Part shown: positions 1,375 to 9,097 of the stretch, piece after piece
Layout of the letters: every line of letters starts with the position of its first letter
Position numbering within the stretch: the first letter of the stretch is position 1
Assembly (NCBI GenBank): GCA_001779235.1
Contig: MFJN01000020.1
Span: 9,852-47,889 of the forward strand
Origin: Candidatus Gottesmanbacteria bacterium RIFCSPHIGHO2_02_FULL_40_13
GTDB lineage: Bacteria > Patescibacteriota > Microgenomatia > 2-02-FULL-39-11
Reading direction: 5' to 3'
Length of the DNA stretch: 38,038 bases
Made by a program: the position numbers and the translations under genes
The notes under the pieces: generated by a model
What the model was told of the DNA's origin: nothing
The model's database searches: none
The model's input: only the letters and a program-made list of their open reading frames with translations

Positions 1375-1998
1375 ATGCCTATGACTGATGATAAAACAAT
1401 CTTTGATCCTGAAGTGGTCATACCCAACACCAAAAGATTTTTCCGCTTCGTATTTAGTCTGCTGAAACGCAGAAAGAAACTTATAATTATAATTGTCCTA
1501 ATTATACTTGCCTTGGCTGCATTCAGGTTCTTACTCGCCAGAAGATATTCGCCAAGTACTCCCAAACCCAAAGTGGTGGCCGTCAGCGTCGATAAAAGCT
1601 TTGAATTTCCGGCACTCAGCAATCAGGGTAAGCCGACCGGCAATAAAATCCGGCTCAAAATTGCCCAGGTTGAAAAAACCAATCAGGTGATTGTGAAAGA
1701 CCAGACCTTCACGGCGAAAAACAACAAGCTTTTCCTGATTGTGAATTTGGAGATGAAAAACGACGCCACGGCCCCTCTCAATTTGTTGCCCGGCGATCTG
1801 ATCAGACTGACCTACAATAATGATGATAACAATAAATACGCTCCTGACTTGCATAATAATCTGGTATTGATATCCGCTATTTCCACCAAGCTTGACCGCG
1901 TGGGATTCGTGATACCGGATGGTGCACGCAATTTAAAATTACTGATTGGAGAACTGGAAGGGAAGAAAGAATCCATCGCGGTAGAGTTTAGTTCTTGA
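1375..1998 (+). CDS. Single-pass membrane protein with extracytoplasmic DUF4352-like domain
   Basis: N-terminal cytoplasmic segment, one TM (KLIIIIVLIILALAAFRFLL), then a beta-rich domain with KNNKLFLIVNLEMKNDATAPLNLLPGDLIRL typical of DUF4352-like folds. Track start 1363 (TTG) lies inside the terminator stem; ATG 1375 or 1381 is more likely. Confidence 0.6.
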   Translation: MPMTDDKTIFDPEVVIPNTKRFFRFVFSLLKRRKKLIIIIVLIILALAAFRFLLARRYSPSTPKPKVVAVSVDKSFEFPALSNQGKPTGNKIRLKIAQVEKTNQVIVKDQTFTAKNNKLFLIVNLEMKNDATAPLNLLPGDLIRLTYNNDDNNKYAPDLHNNLVLISAISTKLDRVGFVIPDGARNLKLLIGELEGKKESIAVEFSS

Positions 1999-2023
1999 CA
2001 AGAGATTAGACAGTAGTTATATT
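1995..2023 (+). promoter_or_regulatory. Sigma70-type promoter TTGACA-N17-TATATT
   Basis: TTGACA 1995-2000, 17-nt spacer, TATATT 2018-2023. Confidence 0.55.
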
Positions 2024-2093: not shown

Positions 2094-2270
2094 GTGGTTG
2101 ATTACTCAACAAAAAAAATAACCAGAGACCTTGTGGAAGAACTCAAACAGGCGCTGAAAAACGTGCGCGGATGGGGCAGTGTCGAAATTTACGTACAGGA
2201 TTTCAAAGTCACTCAGATAACCGAGCGCAATATCAAAAAAACCAGTCATAACATACGGGATCTGAAATAG
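2094..2270 (+). CDS. Small DUF2292-like protein
   Basis: VEELKQALKNVRGWGSVEIYVQDFKVTQITERNIKKT matches the remembered DUF2292 pattern (L..L..G.V.I.V.DGKV.QI.R.EK). Track start 2022 lies within the proposed -10; GTG at 2094 gives about 58 aa, the usual family size. Confidence 0.5.
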   Translation: MVDYSTKKITRDLVEELKQALKNVRGWGSVEIYVQDFKVTQITERNIKKTSHNIRDLK

Positions 2271-2377
2271 AAATTTAATTTATACTTCTCGCATTTGATT
2301 ATGCGATCAGTATATACCCTTCTAATCTGATTATTGCTTATAATTTTTCGCAAAATCAGTTAAGAATGGTATAAATT

Positions 2378-2439
2378 ACCGACCGCACACGGAGGTAGGC
2401 ATCCATACATGATATGTATGAGTTGCTTACCTCTTTTTT
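2378..2439 (+). promoter_or_regulatory. Structured 5' leader: ACCGACCGCACACGG motif plus long hairpin with U-tract (possible conditional terminator)
   Basis: Hairpin GAGGTAGGCATCCATACAT-GAT-ATGTATGAGTTGCTTACCTC (2392-2433), then T6 (2434-2439); -10-like sequences TATAAT (2339) and TGgTATAAA (2370) upstream. Confidence 0.6.
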
Positions 2440-2474: not shown

Positions 2475-2512
2475 CAGGATGGCTATCTTTTCCTAGGCAG
2501 ATAGCTGTCCTG
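2475..2512 (+). promoter_or_regulatory. Second 5'-UTR hairpin upstream of the surface-protein gene
   Basis: CAGGATGGCTATCT / AGATAGCTGTCCTG pair over about 14 bp with two GU pairs; no T-tract follows. Confidence 0.5.
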
Positions 2513-2544: not shown

Positions 2545-3741
2545 GTGAAAAAAATAACAACATTTTTAGGAGCTGCAGCTTTGCTCGCAGCGACATTAGC
2601 ACCGGCGTTTGCTGCAGGGAACAATTGTGGAAACAGCACCACAGGGCCCTATTCCAACAATACCTGCACAGTCAATAATACCAGCAACGTGTCGGTAAAT
2701 AATGTAAACGATGCACAAATAGTAAATACTGTAAGAACAGTTTCCAACACAGGCGGCAACAGTGCTTCCTACAATACTTTAGGAGGTGCAATCACTACTG
2801 GCAATGCGTCATCCAATGTTGCGGTCAGCTCGGTAGCCAATATCAACACGACAAACGTAACAGCAGGATTTGCGGGTGGAAGCAATTCAGGAGTAAATGA
2901 AATCACAGGACCTTACTCCGATAATGATGCTTACATCAACAATGACTACAGAGTCAACACATATAACAGTAACACCGCCACTGTCAACAACAGTGTCAAT
3001 TCTACGTCTGATTCCGGCAACAACAATGCGGACTACAATACCGGTCCGGCATCTGTACGCACAGGAAATACTGCACTTGGGTTGTTAGTTGCCAATCATG
3101 TCAACGACAGCTTTACAGCAGTCTCTCTGGGCGGGTCAGGATCAACCAACAATAACACTGTGGGAAACAGTACTACAGGACCTTACTCAACAAATGATGC
3201 GGTAGTAAACAATACCGCTGATGTCAACATCAACAACGTCAATGATCTGAGAGTAGACAATAGAGTGCTCACTGATTCCAACTCCGGCAGAAACAGTGCT
3301 TCCTACAATACTTTGGGAGGCGATATCACAACCGGTAATGCAACCAGTGATGTAAGCGTAAATACCGAGGGTAACATCAACACAACCGCGGTATCTATGG
3401 CTCTGGGATCATTTACCAATGACGGCAGCAATGACGTCACGGGACCCGAATCCAACAATTCCTCTTACGTGAACAACGCAAGAAACGTGCTGATCGACAA
3501 CTGGAACAACAAATGTCAATCACACAACGCGGATGCTAGATTTGGAACTCCTGGAGCGGTTCCAGTTCCATGTGATGTTAATGACTTGGGAATAGTCAAT
3601 GATGTAGATAGTTTTGTTGATGCGGGTAACAATAACGGTGATTACAATACCGGTGGAGGTATAGTGACAGCTGGATGGACATCACTAGTTGAATCAATTT
3701 TGTCACATCTGAATGATGTGTTGAATCAGGTTCAAATTTAA
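2545..3741 (+). CDS. Secreted Asn/Thr/Ser-rich surface protein with four about 89-aa repeats (ABAB)
   Basis: Signal peptide MKKITTFLGAAALLAATLAPAFAA; repeated (GNS)TTGPYSxN..VNN...SASYNTLGGxITTGNA; repeat starts at 2629, 2896, 3163 and 3430. GTG start. Confidence 0.8.
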   Translation: MKKITTFLGAAALLAATLAPAFAAGNNCGNSTTGPYSNNTCTVNNTSNVSVNNVNDAQIVNTVRTVSNTGGNSASYNTLGGAITTGNASSNVAVSSVANINTTNVTAGFAGGSNSGVNEITGPYSDNDAYINNDYRVNTYNSNTATVNNSVNSTSDSGNNNADYNTGPASVRTGNTALGLLVANHVNDSFTAVSLGGSGSTNNNTVGNSTTGPYSTNDAVVNNTADVNINNVNDLRVDNRVLTDSNSGRNSASYNTLGGDITTGNATSDVSVNTEGNINTTAVSMALGSFTNDGSNDVTGPESNNSSYVNNARNVLIDNWNNKCQSHNADARFGTPGAVPVPCDVNDLGIVNDVDSFVDAGNNNGDYNTGGGIVTAGWTSLVESILSHLNDVLNQVQI

Positions 3742-3826: not shown

Positions 3827-6199
3827 ATGTATAAATTTAAAAAATTTATCAGTTTAGTTCTTATCTACACCCTAATAAGTTTGAGGGTATTTTCGGGTAT
3901 TTCTTTAGTATTGGCTGTTGACGGGGTACCCGGAGTTCCGCCTCCGCCGGGAAGTAGTACCTTTAGTACGCTGCCTCGCCCGCCCAGCAATCCGCCGCCA
4001 CCGAGCAATGCTCCTCCGCCGACCGTTCCTTCAATTGATAGTAATACAGCAACCATTGCGCCTCCTCGTACGTCTGCGGTGGCTCCAACGACTCCTCCTC
4101 TACCGACAGAAGGAACATTACCCACCAGTCAGGTTGAACCAACTGCCGCGACTCTCGACAATTTGTCAAATTTATCGGGATCTGACCCTGATAATTCATC
4201 CGGTAATTCATCCAATTCAGATAATGGTACTAATACAAATAACTCAAACTCTTCTGCGTCATCAAACGACACATCATCATCTTCCTCCGTCAATGATCCC
4301 GCAAATATTGGTACAGGTTATGGATCGCAAAATTATTCCGGTGAAGAGCTGAACAAAAAGCTGGAAGTGATGAACCAGAATTTGGCAGACATGCAGAATA
4401 AAATTGACCAGATGTCGCTAACAGGATTTAACTTCGCAGACTTAAATACTCTGAGCGGCCAGGTTTTCAGCGGAGACGCTTTAGCCAGTCTGAATTTACT
4501 CAACAAACTGAATAGCAATATGACAGGCGAAGGAAGTTTCGCCGTCTACAATATATACGGGAATTATCTCAATGATTTGATCTTTAAACTGGGCAGTAAT
4601 AACGTCACGGATTCATTTGACAGTGCTACGTCTACCGTGTCTAAAAATGCTGTGACAGGCGCATTATCCGACAATACAGCTACGTCAAATAATACTTTTA
4701 CAGTGAAAGAGGCCAATGGAAACGATGCTTTACTTAATAATGATATCAATCTTCAGGCAGTCTCCGGAGGTAATTCGGCTTCCACTAATACCGGCAACGG
4801 AGTTATCAAAACAGGAGACGCGACGGCAATTGGTAATATCGTGAATTTGGCAAATTCCAACATTAACACTGCGGAGTGGCTTTTGGGAGTAGTGAATATA
4901 TACGGTACTATGCTTGGTAATATTCTTCTTCCGCCGGAGAGTAATACTACTTCCAATGTCACAGCTCCGGCAATCTTGACCGCGAACACCAACACCGGAG
5001 CGCTGTCTGATAATGTAGCGACGTTTCAGTCTGACAGCAATACAAATATAGAAAATTCTAATACAGCCAATATTACCAGCAATCTGGATACAATGGCTAA
5101 TACCGGAGACAATACCTCTTCGTTCAATACCGGAGGCGGGTTGATATCAACGGGTAAGACAGATGTATCCGTGAGTAATACAACCATCGCCAATAAAAAT
5201 GACGTGAATGATGAAGGTACAGTCTGGATGATAATTGTCAATGAAGCCGGAAAATGGGTTGGACATATTATTGGCGCCCCATACGACAGTAATTATGCAT
5301 CCAATAGTTTGGGGGCAACACAAACTACAGTCAATAATACTCCTTACTATACCGATACTTTTAATACTTCAACAGGAGCTCTGTCACAAAACGATGCGTC
5401 TTATTCACAGACTGATAATACCGACATCACCAACGCCAATTCAGCTGCAATTGTAAATAACATTACGGCCAATGCTGATTCAGGAAAAAATACAGCCTCA
5501 AGCAACACAGGAGCAGGCATTATTGATACCGGAAATGCAAAGGTAGCCTTAAATCTTGTCAACGTGGCCAACACCAATGTCACAGCCAAAAAATTTATTG
5601 CCGTCATCGTGAATATATTAGGCGAGTTTTTGGGCAATATTATTCCACCAAATTATCAGACAGCCAATACTACGACAAATTCTACCTCAGAGGCCGGACA
5701 GAATATTAACCCAACTCCAACAAGTACTAACCCGCATATCGGCGGAGTGGAAAATTTTGTCAGCCAGCCGACGCCTACTCCCGAGGCACAGAATGAGACA
5801 AATACTTATGCAGACAATTCCAATTATCAATCAACACCTGCAAACAACCAAGCTTCCGAAAATATCTATGAAAAATATTACGAGGCTTTAAATAAAATCA
5901 ATAATTATAAAAAAATTATGTCTCAAAAAAAGAATAACAACACATATACTCAAGCAGTTAATCATGTTGAAGACCAAACCCGAAACAGACAGATATTTCG
6001 GGGAATATACCTTTCCGATACTTTTGCCAAAGCTACAGAGACAACTTTCGCGGGAATGCTTTTTGGAGGCGCAAAAATTAACGTGACAGGGTCATGGTTG
6101 GCAATTGTTCCTTTTGGCATACTTATCTATCTTTTGAGAAGGCGCAAGAAATTTAATTTTACAAAATACCTGAATCTTTTTCTGGAGGTAATCTTATGA
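3827..6199 (+). CDS. Large repeat-containing surface protein, Pro-rich N-terminus, C-terminal TM anchor
   Basis: Signal peptide; PPPPG/PSNPPPPSNAPPP region; Ser/Asn-rich stalk; three about 116-123-aa repeats (NTGALSDN...NTGxGxIxTGxA...VNIYGxxLGNIIPP) plus a partial fourth; C-terminal hydrophobic SWLAIVPFGILIYLL then RRRKKF. Confidence 0.75.
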   Translation: MYKFKKFISLVLIYTLISLRVFSGISLVLAVDGVPGVPPPPGSSTFSTLPRPPSNPPPPSNAPPPTVPSIDSNTATIAPPRTSAVAPTTPPLPTEGTLPTSQVEPTAATLDNLSNLSGSDPDNSSGNSSNSDNGTNTNNSNSSASSNDTSSSSSVNDPANIGTGYGSQNYSGEELNKKLEVMNQNLADMQNKIDQMSLTGFNFADLNTLSGQVFSGDALASLNLLNKLNSNMTGEGSFAVYNIYGNYLNDLIFKLGSNNVTDSFDSATSTVSKNAVTGALSDNTATSNNTFTVKEANGNDALLNNDINLQAVSGGNSASTNTGNGVIKTGDATAIGNIVNLANSNINTAEWLLGVVNIYGTMLGNILLPPESNTTSNVTAPAILTANTNTGALSDNVATFQSDSNTNIENSNTANITSNLDTMANTGDNTSSFNTGGGLISTGKTDVSVSNTTIANKNDVNDEGTVWMIIVNEAGKWVGHIIGAPYDSNYASNSLGATQTTVNNTPYYTDTFNTSTGALSQNDASYSQTDNTDITNANSAAIVNNITANADSGKNTASSNTGAGIIDTGNAKVALNLVNVANTNVTAKKFIAVIVNILGEFLGNIIPPNYQTANTTTNSTSEAGQNINPTPTSTNPHIGGVENFVSQPTPTPEAQNETNTYADNSNYQSTPANNQASENIYEKYYEALNKINNYKKIMSQKKNNNTYTQAVNHVEDQTRNRQIFRGIYLSDTFAKATETTFAGMLFGGAKINVTGSWLAIVPFGILIYLLRRRKKFNFTKYLNLFLEVIL

Positions 6200-6669
6200 A
6201 CAAAATTCTGACTGCCAAAATCATATTAATAATCTTATTTCTTATGCTCTTGATTGGAAAAAGCGATCATCTGGCGCTGGCAGACTGGTGGACCAGATCT
6301 GATATAAGACCAACCCAACCGAACATTGAGAGAAGTTTACCTACTGTGATTGTGGAACCAACCGTCGGGACACAAGTAACGCCAACTTTGGTTGCATCGC
6401 CTCCCCCGATAGGCGACCCCGGGGTGACGAATACTCCTGTTCCAACCGCAGAACCAACAGCCACGCCGAGCAATAATTCATCATCAACATCAACAAGTGG
6501 TGGAAATGAGTCTTCAGGATCGACTACTCCATACGTTGGTCCGCAAGTCTTAGGTTTATCCGATACTGCAGGCGAAGGATTGCAACCGTCTGATATAATA
6601 CTCCTCGCCGGAATATTATGTCTGACGCTATACCTCAGGTCAAAGCTTACAGTCAAACATCAGGATTGA
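6196..6669 (+). CDS. Small secreted Pro/Thr/Ser-rich stalk protein with sorting-signal-like C-terminus (VLGLSDTAGE-TM-K)
   Basis: N-terminal signal (MNKILTAKIILIILFLMLLIGKSDHLALA); Thr/Pro/Ser linker; C-terminal GPQVLGLSDTAGEGLQPSDIILLAGILCLTLYLRSK; overlaps the upstream gene (ATGA) and the downstream sortase. Confidence 0.65.
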   Translation: MNKILTAKIILIILFLMLLIGKSDHLALADWWTRSDIRPTQPNIERSLPTVIVEPTVGTQVTPTLVASPPPIGDPGVTNTPVPTAEPTATPSNNSSSTSTSGGNESSGSTTPYVGPQVLGLSDTAGEGLQPSDIILLAGILCLTLYLRSKLTVKHQD

Positions 6670-7253
6670 AATTAGCCCGATTCCTGCTTTTAATCAGCGG
6701 TGTTATCTTTGTTTTTGTCGGGATCAAAATGTCGAGAGACTCACGAGACGCATCACCACAAAATAATATCATTATCGCGGGCGAAGTGACCTCTTTTTTC
6801 CAGGAGCCCATCAAAGTAGATAAGAAATTACTTCAAGCAAATGATAAACAAAAAGATAAACTGCCTCCTGTCAGAATTATCATTCCGTCTGTCAATATCG
6901 ATCTGTCTGTCAAGGAAGCGAAAGTCGTCAACGGCTATTGGGAAGTATTTCCCGATAGAGCCGGCTTTGGTTTGGGATCTACCTATCCGGGTGAGATTGG
7001 TAATCAGGTAATTTTTGCTCATGCCGGAAAAGGTCTATTTTTACCCTTAAAAAAAGTAAATATTAAAGATAAAATTTTTGTCTCTACTAAAACCAAACTC
7101 TTTACATATTTTGTGACAGCTATTAAGGAGGTATTTCCCAACAATACAGATATAATCGGATTGACAAACGAAAAAACTTTGACTCTTTATACCTGTACAG
7201 GTTTTTCAGACAGTAAAAGGCTGATAGTCATAGCAAAAGAGGTTAGTAATTAG
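6618..7253 (+). CDS. Sortase
   Basis: N-terminal TM anchor; catalytic-type motifs NQVIFAHAG (His), TLTLYTCTGF (Cys), SKRLIVIA (Arg). Start may be ATG 6618 or TTG 6666. Confidence 0.85.
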   Translation: MSDAIPQVKAYSQTSGLKLARFLLLISGVIFVFVGIKMSRDSRDASPQNNIIIAGEVTSFFQEPIKVDKKLLQANDKQKDKLPPVRIIIPSVNIDLSVKEAKVVNGYWEVFPDRAGFGLGSTYPGEIGNQVIFAHAGKGLFLPLKKVNIKDKIFVSTKTKLFTYFVTAIKEVFPNNTDIIGLTNEKTLTLYTCTGFSDSKRLIVIAKEVSN

Positions 7254-7309: not shown

Positions 7310-7339
7310 TTGACATCTTCTTAATATTAGTTTTATGAT
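7310..7339 (+). promoter_or_regulatory. Sigma70-type promoter TTGACA-N18-TATGAT
   Basis: TTGACA at 7310-7315, TATGAT at 7334-7339. Confidence 0.5.
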
Positions 7340-7364
7340 GAATTAAATTAAATAATAATATGAT

Positions 7365-7416
7365 CGACCGTAAACGGAGATCTCATTAATTTATGATGAA
7401 TCTGCTCTTCGTTTAC
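7365..7416 (+). promoter_or_regulatory. Second copy of leader motif (CGACCGTAAACGGAG) with long hairpin
   Basis: GTAAACGGAGA (7370-7380) pairs with TCTGCTCTTCGTTTAC region (7401-7416); same motif core as 2380-2394. Confidence 0.5.
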
Positions 7417-7429
7417 ATAAAGTTAATTA

Positions 7430-7453
7430 AACCACAATGAGTGGTTTTTTTTT
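7430..7453 (+). terminator. Intrinsic terminator AACCAC-AATGA-GTGGTT-T9 within the leader
   Basis: 6-bp stem followed by nine T, about 20 nt before the CDS start. Confidence 0.65.
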
Positions 7454-7471: not shown

Positions 7472-9097
7472 ATGATGAATTTGATAAAAAAAATACATGT
7501 GAGAAACTTTTTATTAGGGGTTTTGTTGGGAATTCTTACCTTAACTTTTAATGTTAAGCCTGCAGCAGCAAACAAAATATCTCGAATTGATCAATTTGCA
7601 GAATTTCTCAAGCTGCTGCCTTTGTCAAGAATAAATTCCAAAATTACTCCCATGCCAAAATTTGGAATATTTAACAGATTTCCGACTATTTTTATTCCGA
7701 GAATAAATATAACCATTACTCCGACACAGACTTTAACTCCTACTCCTACTCCAACACGCACACCCACCCCGACGATAACTCCGACTCCAACTGCGACACT
7801 TACGCCAGCTTTATCACCGACACTGACTTCTACTCCTACCATGACCTTAACTCCAACTCCAACAGTGACAGGATTACCACCACCTGTTGAAACGTCCACG
7901 CCTACTCCGACTACTACCATATCTCCTATTCCCAGCGAGACTCCTACTTCTACATTGACAGTGACACCTACTCCGACGACTCCACCGGCCTCTCCAAATT
8001 TAGTAGCCTATTGGAAGATGGATGAGGGAAGCGGAAGCACGGTAGGAGATATTTCAGGCAATGGCAATGATTTGACGATTATCGGTAATCCATTATGGTC
8101 TGTGAATGTGCCTCCAACAAGCGTTTCTGACTCGTTTTCTCTAGTGTTTGACGGATTGACGTATGGTCAGCTGGTAGATTCACTAAAGAATTCTAATTTT
8201 GATTTTACGACCGGATTCACAATTGAGGCTTGGATCAATCCAACACAAGTCAGTGATTCTGCCATTCTCTCTAAATTTTCCGGATATATGATATGGTTTA
8301 GAAATGGTACCGTTAGTAATTATATCGATGGCAGCCAGGCAGCTGCAACGTCCAATCTGGTTAATGGCTTATGGCATCATGTGGCAATCTCTTGGGACGG
8401 AATAAATCAGGCGGTATATGTGGATGGGGTTAGAGAAGGAGCTTTAGTAGCGCATAGTACGCCTCCCGGTACCGGAGGAAGTTTACTACTAGCCAGCTAT
8501 AATCCTGCCCAATTTAATTTTATCGGCAATATCGATGAAGTAAAGGTATATAATTATGCCAGATCACAGGACGAAATTGATTCTGATGCCGGTATCCCTG
8601 GTTCAGTAGTATTGAATGAAATCATGTGGTCGGGAAGCAACGCTGTGCCTTCAGATGAATGGGTTGAGTTAAAAAACAATACGTCTTCAGCAATAGATCT
8701 CACCAATTGGGGTATCGAAAATTTAGGTGACTCAGCCACGCCAAATATTAATATGACCTCAGGTATTATCCCAGCCAATGGATATTTTTTGATCGCCAAC
8801 AACAGCAAAGATAATTCCGTCATCAATGTTGATCCTGACTTTGAGACCAGTTCCATGGAATTGATAAATACAGGTGAGCAGTTAAACTTGATCAATAATA
8901 AAGGAATATTAGTGGATACTGCAAATGATTCAGGTGTTTGGTTTGCCGGCGACAACGACGTTCCGAAGAAATCAATGTCGAGAAATTCACCTTCCGGCGA
9001 CGGTTCTCTATCTTCAAATTGGCATACATCCACTACCTCGGTTAATCTTGATCCGGGCGCATTAGAGCTTGCCACACCCCAAACTGCGAACGATTGA
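7472..9097 (+). CDS. Secreted protein: Thr/Pro-rich linker, LamG-like (concanavalin-fold) domain, C-terminal lamin-tail domain (LTD)
   Basis: Signal peptide; [18 protein letters not shown] linker; [27 protein letters not shown]...[11 protein letters not shown]...[10 protein letters not shown] (LamG_3); [39 protein letters not shown]...[11 protein letters not shown] (LTD). Confidence 0.85.

Follow-up and report, generated by a model that had tools for sequence, protein, structure and literature searches.

The leader in front of the first surface-protein gene of this Gottesmanbacteria contig belongs to a real family of RNA attenuators of surface genes, which is spread over many families of one class and is absent from Rfam and from the literature searched. 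It has two features of an attenuator: the leader contains an intrinsic terminator, and an alternative helix that shares a strand with this terminator is conserved by covariation. We consider it probable that the leader attenuates transcription in cis and that a factor acting in trans stabilises its antiterminator hairpin; the likeliest such factor is the DUF2292 protein encoded just upstream. The window is the whole stretch of DNA that was analysed (38,038 nt); the parts of the two leader units described below are on the forward strand.

The first-pass annotation reported a sequence block shared by two leaders, and both blocks are present at those positions (ACCGACCGCACACGGAG at 2378-2394 and TCGACCGTAAACGGAG at 7364-7379). 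With at most one mismatch, ACCGNNNACGGAG has four matches in the window against 0.59 expected, and none of 100 shuffles reaches four; the remaining two matches (4790 and 26862) fall inside coding sequence. Copy 1 of the RNA element (2373..2400; 37 bits with R1, the covariance model of the element) is the antiterminator hairpin UUACC-GA-CCG-CACA-CGG-A-GGUAG, with an outer helix (2376-2380/2394-2398) and an inner stem (2383-2385/2390-2392). The block was described as part of or next to a long hairpin; the long hairpin is present, but the block itself is the core of a hairpin of about 25 nt (2376-2398) that competes with the terminator. The long hairpin (2392-2433) continues directly into T6 (2434-2439), as had been noted, with a folding energy of -23 to -24 kcal/mol (z -5 to -7). 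Together they form an intrinsic terminator (2392..2439), GAGGUAGGC...GCUUACCUC-UUUUUU, whose pairs covary. Since the 3' half of the element is the 5' arm of the terminator, the two folds are mutually exclusive; in the window, the energies are -7.5 kcal/mol for the antiterminator and -23.8 kcal/mol for the terminator. A DNA search finds the stretch 2373-2443 conserved ahead of the orthologous surface gene in relatives.

Upstream of copy 1, a sigma-70-like promoter (TTGACA-17-TATATT, 1995..2023; 11/12 consensus) precedes the small DUF2292 ORF (2094..2270; 58 codons, GTG start). A promoter had been proposed in front of each copy. This is true of copy 2, which has its own (TTGACA-18-TATGAT, 7310..7339; 11/12 consensus), but the promoter of copy 1 is probably the one ahead of the DUF2292 ORF, which probably drives a transcription unit that includes the copy 1 leader. 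Further upstream, 1363-1998 encodes a 211-aa membrane-anchored protein with no Pfam match; proteins resembling it repeatedly precede DUF2292 in related loci. Downstream, a second leader hairpin (2475..2512; -20.7 kcal/mol, z -3.85) lies between the terminator and the first surface gene (2545..3741). This gene encodes a secreted Asn-rich protein of 398 aa which has no Pfam match and has relatives in 44 of 138 genomes. Two ORFs (3827-6199 and 6196-6669) and a sortase gene (6618..7253; PF04203, E 3.6e-20) follow, the sortase closing the first gene group.

Directly upstream of copy 1 is a 96-nt dispersed repeat (2281-2376), whose last base is the first of the outer helix. It is 95/96 identical to a copy right before rplF in the ribosomal-protein operon of the same genome (G000:C44:18018-18113; L002, L299). 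Partial copies are found on contigs C37, C33 and C24 and in other genomes; the repeat looks like a small mobile palindromic element.

A constant pattern is found upstream of homologous genes: a variable strand of 4-6 nt, the core GA-CCG-NNNN-CGG-A with a loop that is mostly CNAA, and a strand complementary to the first. In these leaders the second variable strand doubles as the 5' arm of an intrinsic terminator. An alignment of 36 leaders was chosen by the core pattern alone, so the outer helix was not selected for. In this alignment, 93.6% of antiterminator helix cells are paired, compared with 82.8% when shuffled and 25-47% when slid, and double-change cells number 45 against 20 in shuffles. 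For the terminator helix, the test gives 91.8% of cells paired against 76.2%, with 76 double-change cells against 30. As the sequences are related and the shuffles ignore kinship, the significance of these differences is overstated and the number of families is a better guide; both helices covary before surface genes in at least 14 families, and covariation at homologous loci was the check that the first-pass annotation had proposed.

About 98 of the 111 leaders have an overlapping terminator. These 98 show three-strand covariation, the shared strand keeping both partners in most cases; because some of them were retrieved with the structure model, the 36-leader test is the cleaner one. At columns 6 and 24 and the corresponding terminator position, G-C|C-G occurs in 14 families, A-U|U-A in three and U-A|A-U in one; at columns 8 and 22, the combinations are C-G|G-C, U-G|G-C and U-A|A-U. 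Leaders selected by the pattern all have the same inner stem, because the pattern requires it. Among leaders found independently via DUF2292, the first inner pair is G-C or G-U in two genomes (G071 and G335), and the divergent element of G071 carries a compensatory inner-stem change from C-G to G-C. Energies across the set are about -5 to -15 kcal/mol for the antiterminator and mostly -12 to -50 kcal/mol for the terminators; a few low terminator energies stem from T-runs within the loop.

These patterns bear on three other readings of the leader. It could merely end the DUF2292 transcript as an intrinsic terminator, or do so partially and thereby set stoichiometry, with no switching; in the window's family, the element does lie 2-102 nt past the DUF2292 stop codon. 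We regard this as improbable, as a terminator needs neither the 5' strand nor the core, yet both show conservation and covariation, elements with their own promoter recur ahead of genes without DUF2292, and leader-ORF copies use the element without an overlapping terminator. The leader is also short, carries a terminator and is found in several copies per genome, as would be expected of a stand-alone small RNA with a conserved unpaired 5' end that acts in trans on other messages. This is very unlikely: the position is almost always before surface genes and in their sense, some copies have leader ORFs, and the 5' end covaries with an internal strand, so it is paired and not a free seed. Finally, TACCGACCG...CGGAGGTA is an imperfect inverted repeat which might suggest a palindromic DNA operator bound by a transcription factor. 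An operator is hardly credible here because the interruption is asymmetric (2x1), only a single orientation is found, the half-site varies by compensation instead of staying conserved, and a third strand (the terminator 3' arm) covaries as well.

Sigma-70-like sites (at least 10/12) are found within 100 nt of 37 of 107 leaders, compared with 4% of shuffles. These promoters mostly end 10-40 nt before the outer helix, which places the element near the 5' end of the message in those leaders. No -10 box occurs at a fixed distance; promoters lie at variable distances from the element.

The two surface genes behind the shared block had been called unlinked. This does not hold: they are 5 kb apart within one surface/sortase cluster. 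Some 970 nt ahead of the window, the same genome carries the element a third time (G000:C20:8882; L278 8882-8909); it is of the CGGAA type, has an overlapping terminator and lies ahead of a surface paralogue. Copy 2 (GAUC-GA-CCG-UAAA-CGG-A-GAUC, 7358..7385; R1 30.4 bits, E 8.5e-5; -7.1 kcal/mol) differs in architecture. An alternative hairpin without a U-run (7370..7416; -14.4 kcal/mol) overlaps the element and its GGAG, and the intrinsic terminator (7429..7453) is separate from the element. The downstream gene (7472..9097) encodes a surface protein with a Thr/Pro-rich linker and, by Pfam, LamG (PF13385) and Lamin-tail (PF00932) domains. Between element and gene is a possible 15-codon leader ORF (7393..7440) with its stop codon in the terminator loop.

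Comparable leader ORFs occur elsewhere. In a minority of leaders, a short ORF lies 3' of the hairpin, often with its stop within the loop of a downstream terminator; the stop is in or at this loop in at least three leaders (L169, L185 and L177) and in copy 2 of the window. In seven leaders, an AUG is found 4-6 nt after the GGAG or GGAAG of the element. The spacing in copy 2 is longer (13 nt), so its leader ORF is less certain. The anatomy suggests that in leader-ORF copies the same hairpin covers the Shine-Dalgarno sequence of the short ORF, and that the same factor would here work by controlling whether the ORF is translated. Hairpin formation should then block the ORF and favour termination, the reverse sign of the main architecture, and a single factor would have to accommodate both signs. 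This minority, copy 2 included, is like leader-peptide attenuators of the trp/pyrBI type in that the stop codon of a short ORF falls within an intrinsic terminator's loop; unlike those, the ribosome-binding site of the leader ORF here lies inside the conserved regulatory hairpin.

The genes downstream of the element encode Asn-rich secreted proteins of about 400 aa and their paralogues of about 150-200 aa, camelysin/TasA-like proteins with or without VWA domains (PF12389, PF00092), LamG/LTD surface proteins and an M23 peptidase protein. The TasA-like label comes from the camelysin match and the appearance of the signal peptide; these proteins are putative fibre formers. UDP-sugar dehydrogenase, PIG-L deacetylase and family-2 glycosyltransferase genes are also found, with more cases of the first two recognised by sequence likeness. 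The glycosyltransferase leader (L201) and an LTD leader (L184) are weaker examples, with no overlapping terminator. One locus (L289 in G099, reverse strand) is a compact operon with the same kind of leader: DUF2292, a divergent element, a TasA-like gene and a SipW-like signal peptidase gene.

Of 374 genomes in the class, 79 have R1 matches (about 111 in all, one to three per genome); a few of the weakest are taken to be false, and E-values are rough because the model is short. The false matches are in G016, G072, G240, G241 and G073 (C18:99), all with weak scores; those in G016, G072 and G073, whose sequences were inspected, have no matching terminator. When one exact form was scanned for in 84,980 species, 44 loci were found, and the convincing copies are all in Microgenomates or other Patescibacteria by name. 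Exact-form loci with outer pairing occur in Gottesman-, Curtiss-, Davies-, Levy-, Roizman-, Woese-, Ames- and Chisholmbacteria, as well as in one genome named Nealsonbacteria and one named only 'bacterium'. Pattern matches in Clostridia, Aminicenantes, Puniceicoccaceae, Flavobacteriales and Magnetococcales have no outer pairing and look like chance. In phylum-wide samples, neither element nor DUF2292 is found convincingly outside the class; two out-of-class R1 matches (L254 and L256) have no terminator and are judged to be chance, and a third (G663) is weak (E 0.0099).

The element had not been recognised as a named riboswitch class, and none is found: neither the window nor any of 20 related loci contains a match to an Rfam 15 family that reaches the curated gathering score. 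Sub-threshold matches by E-value are far below the gathering scores of their families and are mostly to eukaryotic miRNA families. The literature searched contains no relevant paper on RNA motifs of CPR or Microgenomates. The absence of an Rfam class and the covarying helices before surface genes support the earlier proposal of a regulatory leader that coordinates surface-protein expression.

The candidate regulator is a DUF2292 (PF10055) protein. The window ORF scores 26.1 bits against a Pfam gathering cut-off of 22 bits (1.2e-29 with our own profile of this protein, A3); among four relatives, three pass (34.8, 29.6 and 24.8 bits) and one is below (18.2). In the class, these proteins have about 57-80 aa. 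A same-strand small DUF2292 ORF with the signature GxGSVEIYVQDxKVTQITxRNIKKT ends 2-297 nt upstream of 54 of the 111 elements; about half of the elements have no adjacent DUF2292 gene. A tblastn search of plasmids with DUF2292 gives no match.

Element and DUF2292 gene occur together. A3 finds DUF2292 in 78 of 374 genomes, nearly always in single copy, and R1 finds the element in 72 of these 78; on inspection, the other six, as well as G073, have a divergent element shortly downstream of DUF2292. Seven genomes have the element only. Four of these are weak matches judged false; in two (G020 and G127) the contig breaks off about 1 kb upstream, in the region that holds DUF2292 in related genomes; this leaves one (G323). 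Among 138 genomes, phi between DUF2292 and element is 0.88 raw and 0.97 after inspection, which was not blind and after which all 44 DUF2292-bearing genomes have the element. Since the element is almost confined to genomes with DUF2292, this protein is the best candidate for the regulator. The co-occurrence could reflect one inherited locus instead of an interaction.

The same attenuator might instead respond directly to a small molecule or ion (as a very small riboswitch), to RNA polymerase or to the ribosome, with DUF2292 an unrelated neighbour. The core is strictly conserved, elements are located in trans, away from DUF2292, and searches of PDB by sequence and fold with DUF2292 return no relative and none that is RNA-binding. 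We consider direct sensing rather unlikely, as an aptamer would be expected to be larger than a 25-nt hairpin with a single 2x1 internal loop, GG, AA, CA and AG are all tolerated in place of GA, and element and DUF2292 track each other more tightly than either tracks the surface protein (phi 0.75 for surface protein and element and 0.77 for surface protein and DUF2292). Because the hairpin is so small and a DUF2292 gene is linked to it, an antitermination site that depends on a factor is a better reading than a metabolite riboswitch. The predicted model of DUF2292 (pLDDT 85.7) has a helix and a two-stranded beta hairpin, with conserved basic residues (R45 and K49) in or just after the second strand.

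Two known systems are similar in design. Like the RAT sites of BglG, SacY and LicT, the element is a small imperfect leader hairpin that overlaps a stronger intrinsic terminator and needs stabilisation; the candidate regulator gene lies beside its own target site, and there are several target sites per genome. RAT sites have a different sequence and internal loop, and the targets here are surface structures rather than sugar uptake. The RNA-binding domain of BglG/LicT (CAT_RBD, PF03123) is found in none of 20 element-bearing genomes, with controls detected. CsrA/RsmA leaders likewise control surface traits and have a hairpin with a conserved GGA, which overlaps the Shine-Dalgarno sequence in some copies, but the GGA of the element sits in a stem and not in the hairpin loop. 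CsrA (PF02599) is found in none of 59 genomes, with controls detected. A DUF2292 relative in Pseudomonas, OscA, is a small protein of unknown function encoded beside sulfate transport genes (PMC2996968). The upstream ORF and its relatives score 17-24 bits against the OscA equivalog model (NF033785), below its threshold of 85 bits; the part of the DUF2292 paper available describes no RNA role.

In the default state, the nascent RNA would fold the strong terminator, and transcription would halt ahead of the surface genes. In the ON state, the small imperfect hairpin (GA / CCG-CNAA-CGG / A with its variable outer helix) would replace the terminator by taking up its 5' arm, allowing readthrough. 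This direction of control is inferred from the two folds. Given the large energy gap in favour of the terminator, the hairpin probably depends on a trans-acting factor to hold it, unless kinetics alone decide. The DUF2292 protein, encoded in the transcription unit of copy 1, would be that factor, presumably binding the hairpin in response to some signal, and would act in trans on the other leaders of the genome; this role is the best-supported guess.

Regulation of the switch between attached and free states in Patescibacteria has been described as unknown (PMC11665869). The element is a compact RNA switch whose two competing folds are both supported by sequence evidence, and its surface-gene regulon spans many families within one class of ultrasmall uncultured bacteria. 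It also gives DUF2292 a concrete candidate function as an RNA-binding antiterminator, which is testable with a short synthetic RNA and a 58-residue protein, so that the organism need not be grown. More tentatively, DUF2292 may be a new family of RNA-binding antiterminators in which one Microgenomates protein reads one hairpin in two ways: as an antiterminator, it would open transcription of the Asn-rich coat, and through the hairpin over the Shine-Dalgarno sequence it would close leader-ORF-dependent surface genes such as those for camelysin/TasA-like proteins. If this possible but doubtful extension is true, the two-way reading would be a reciprocal switch between cell-surface states.
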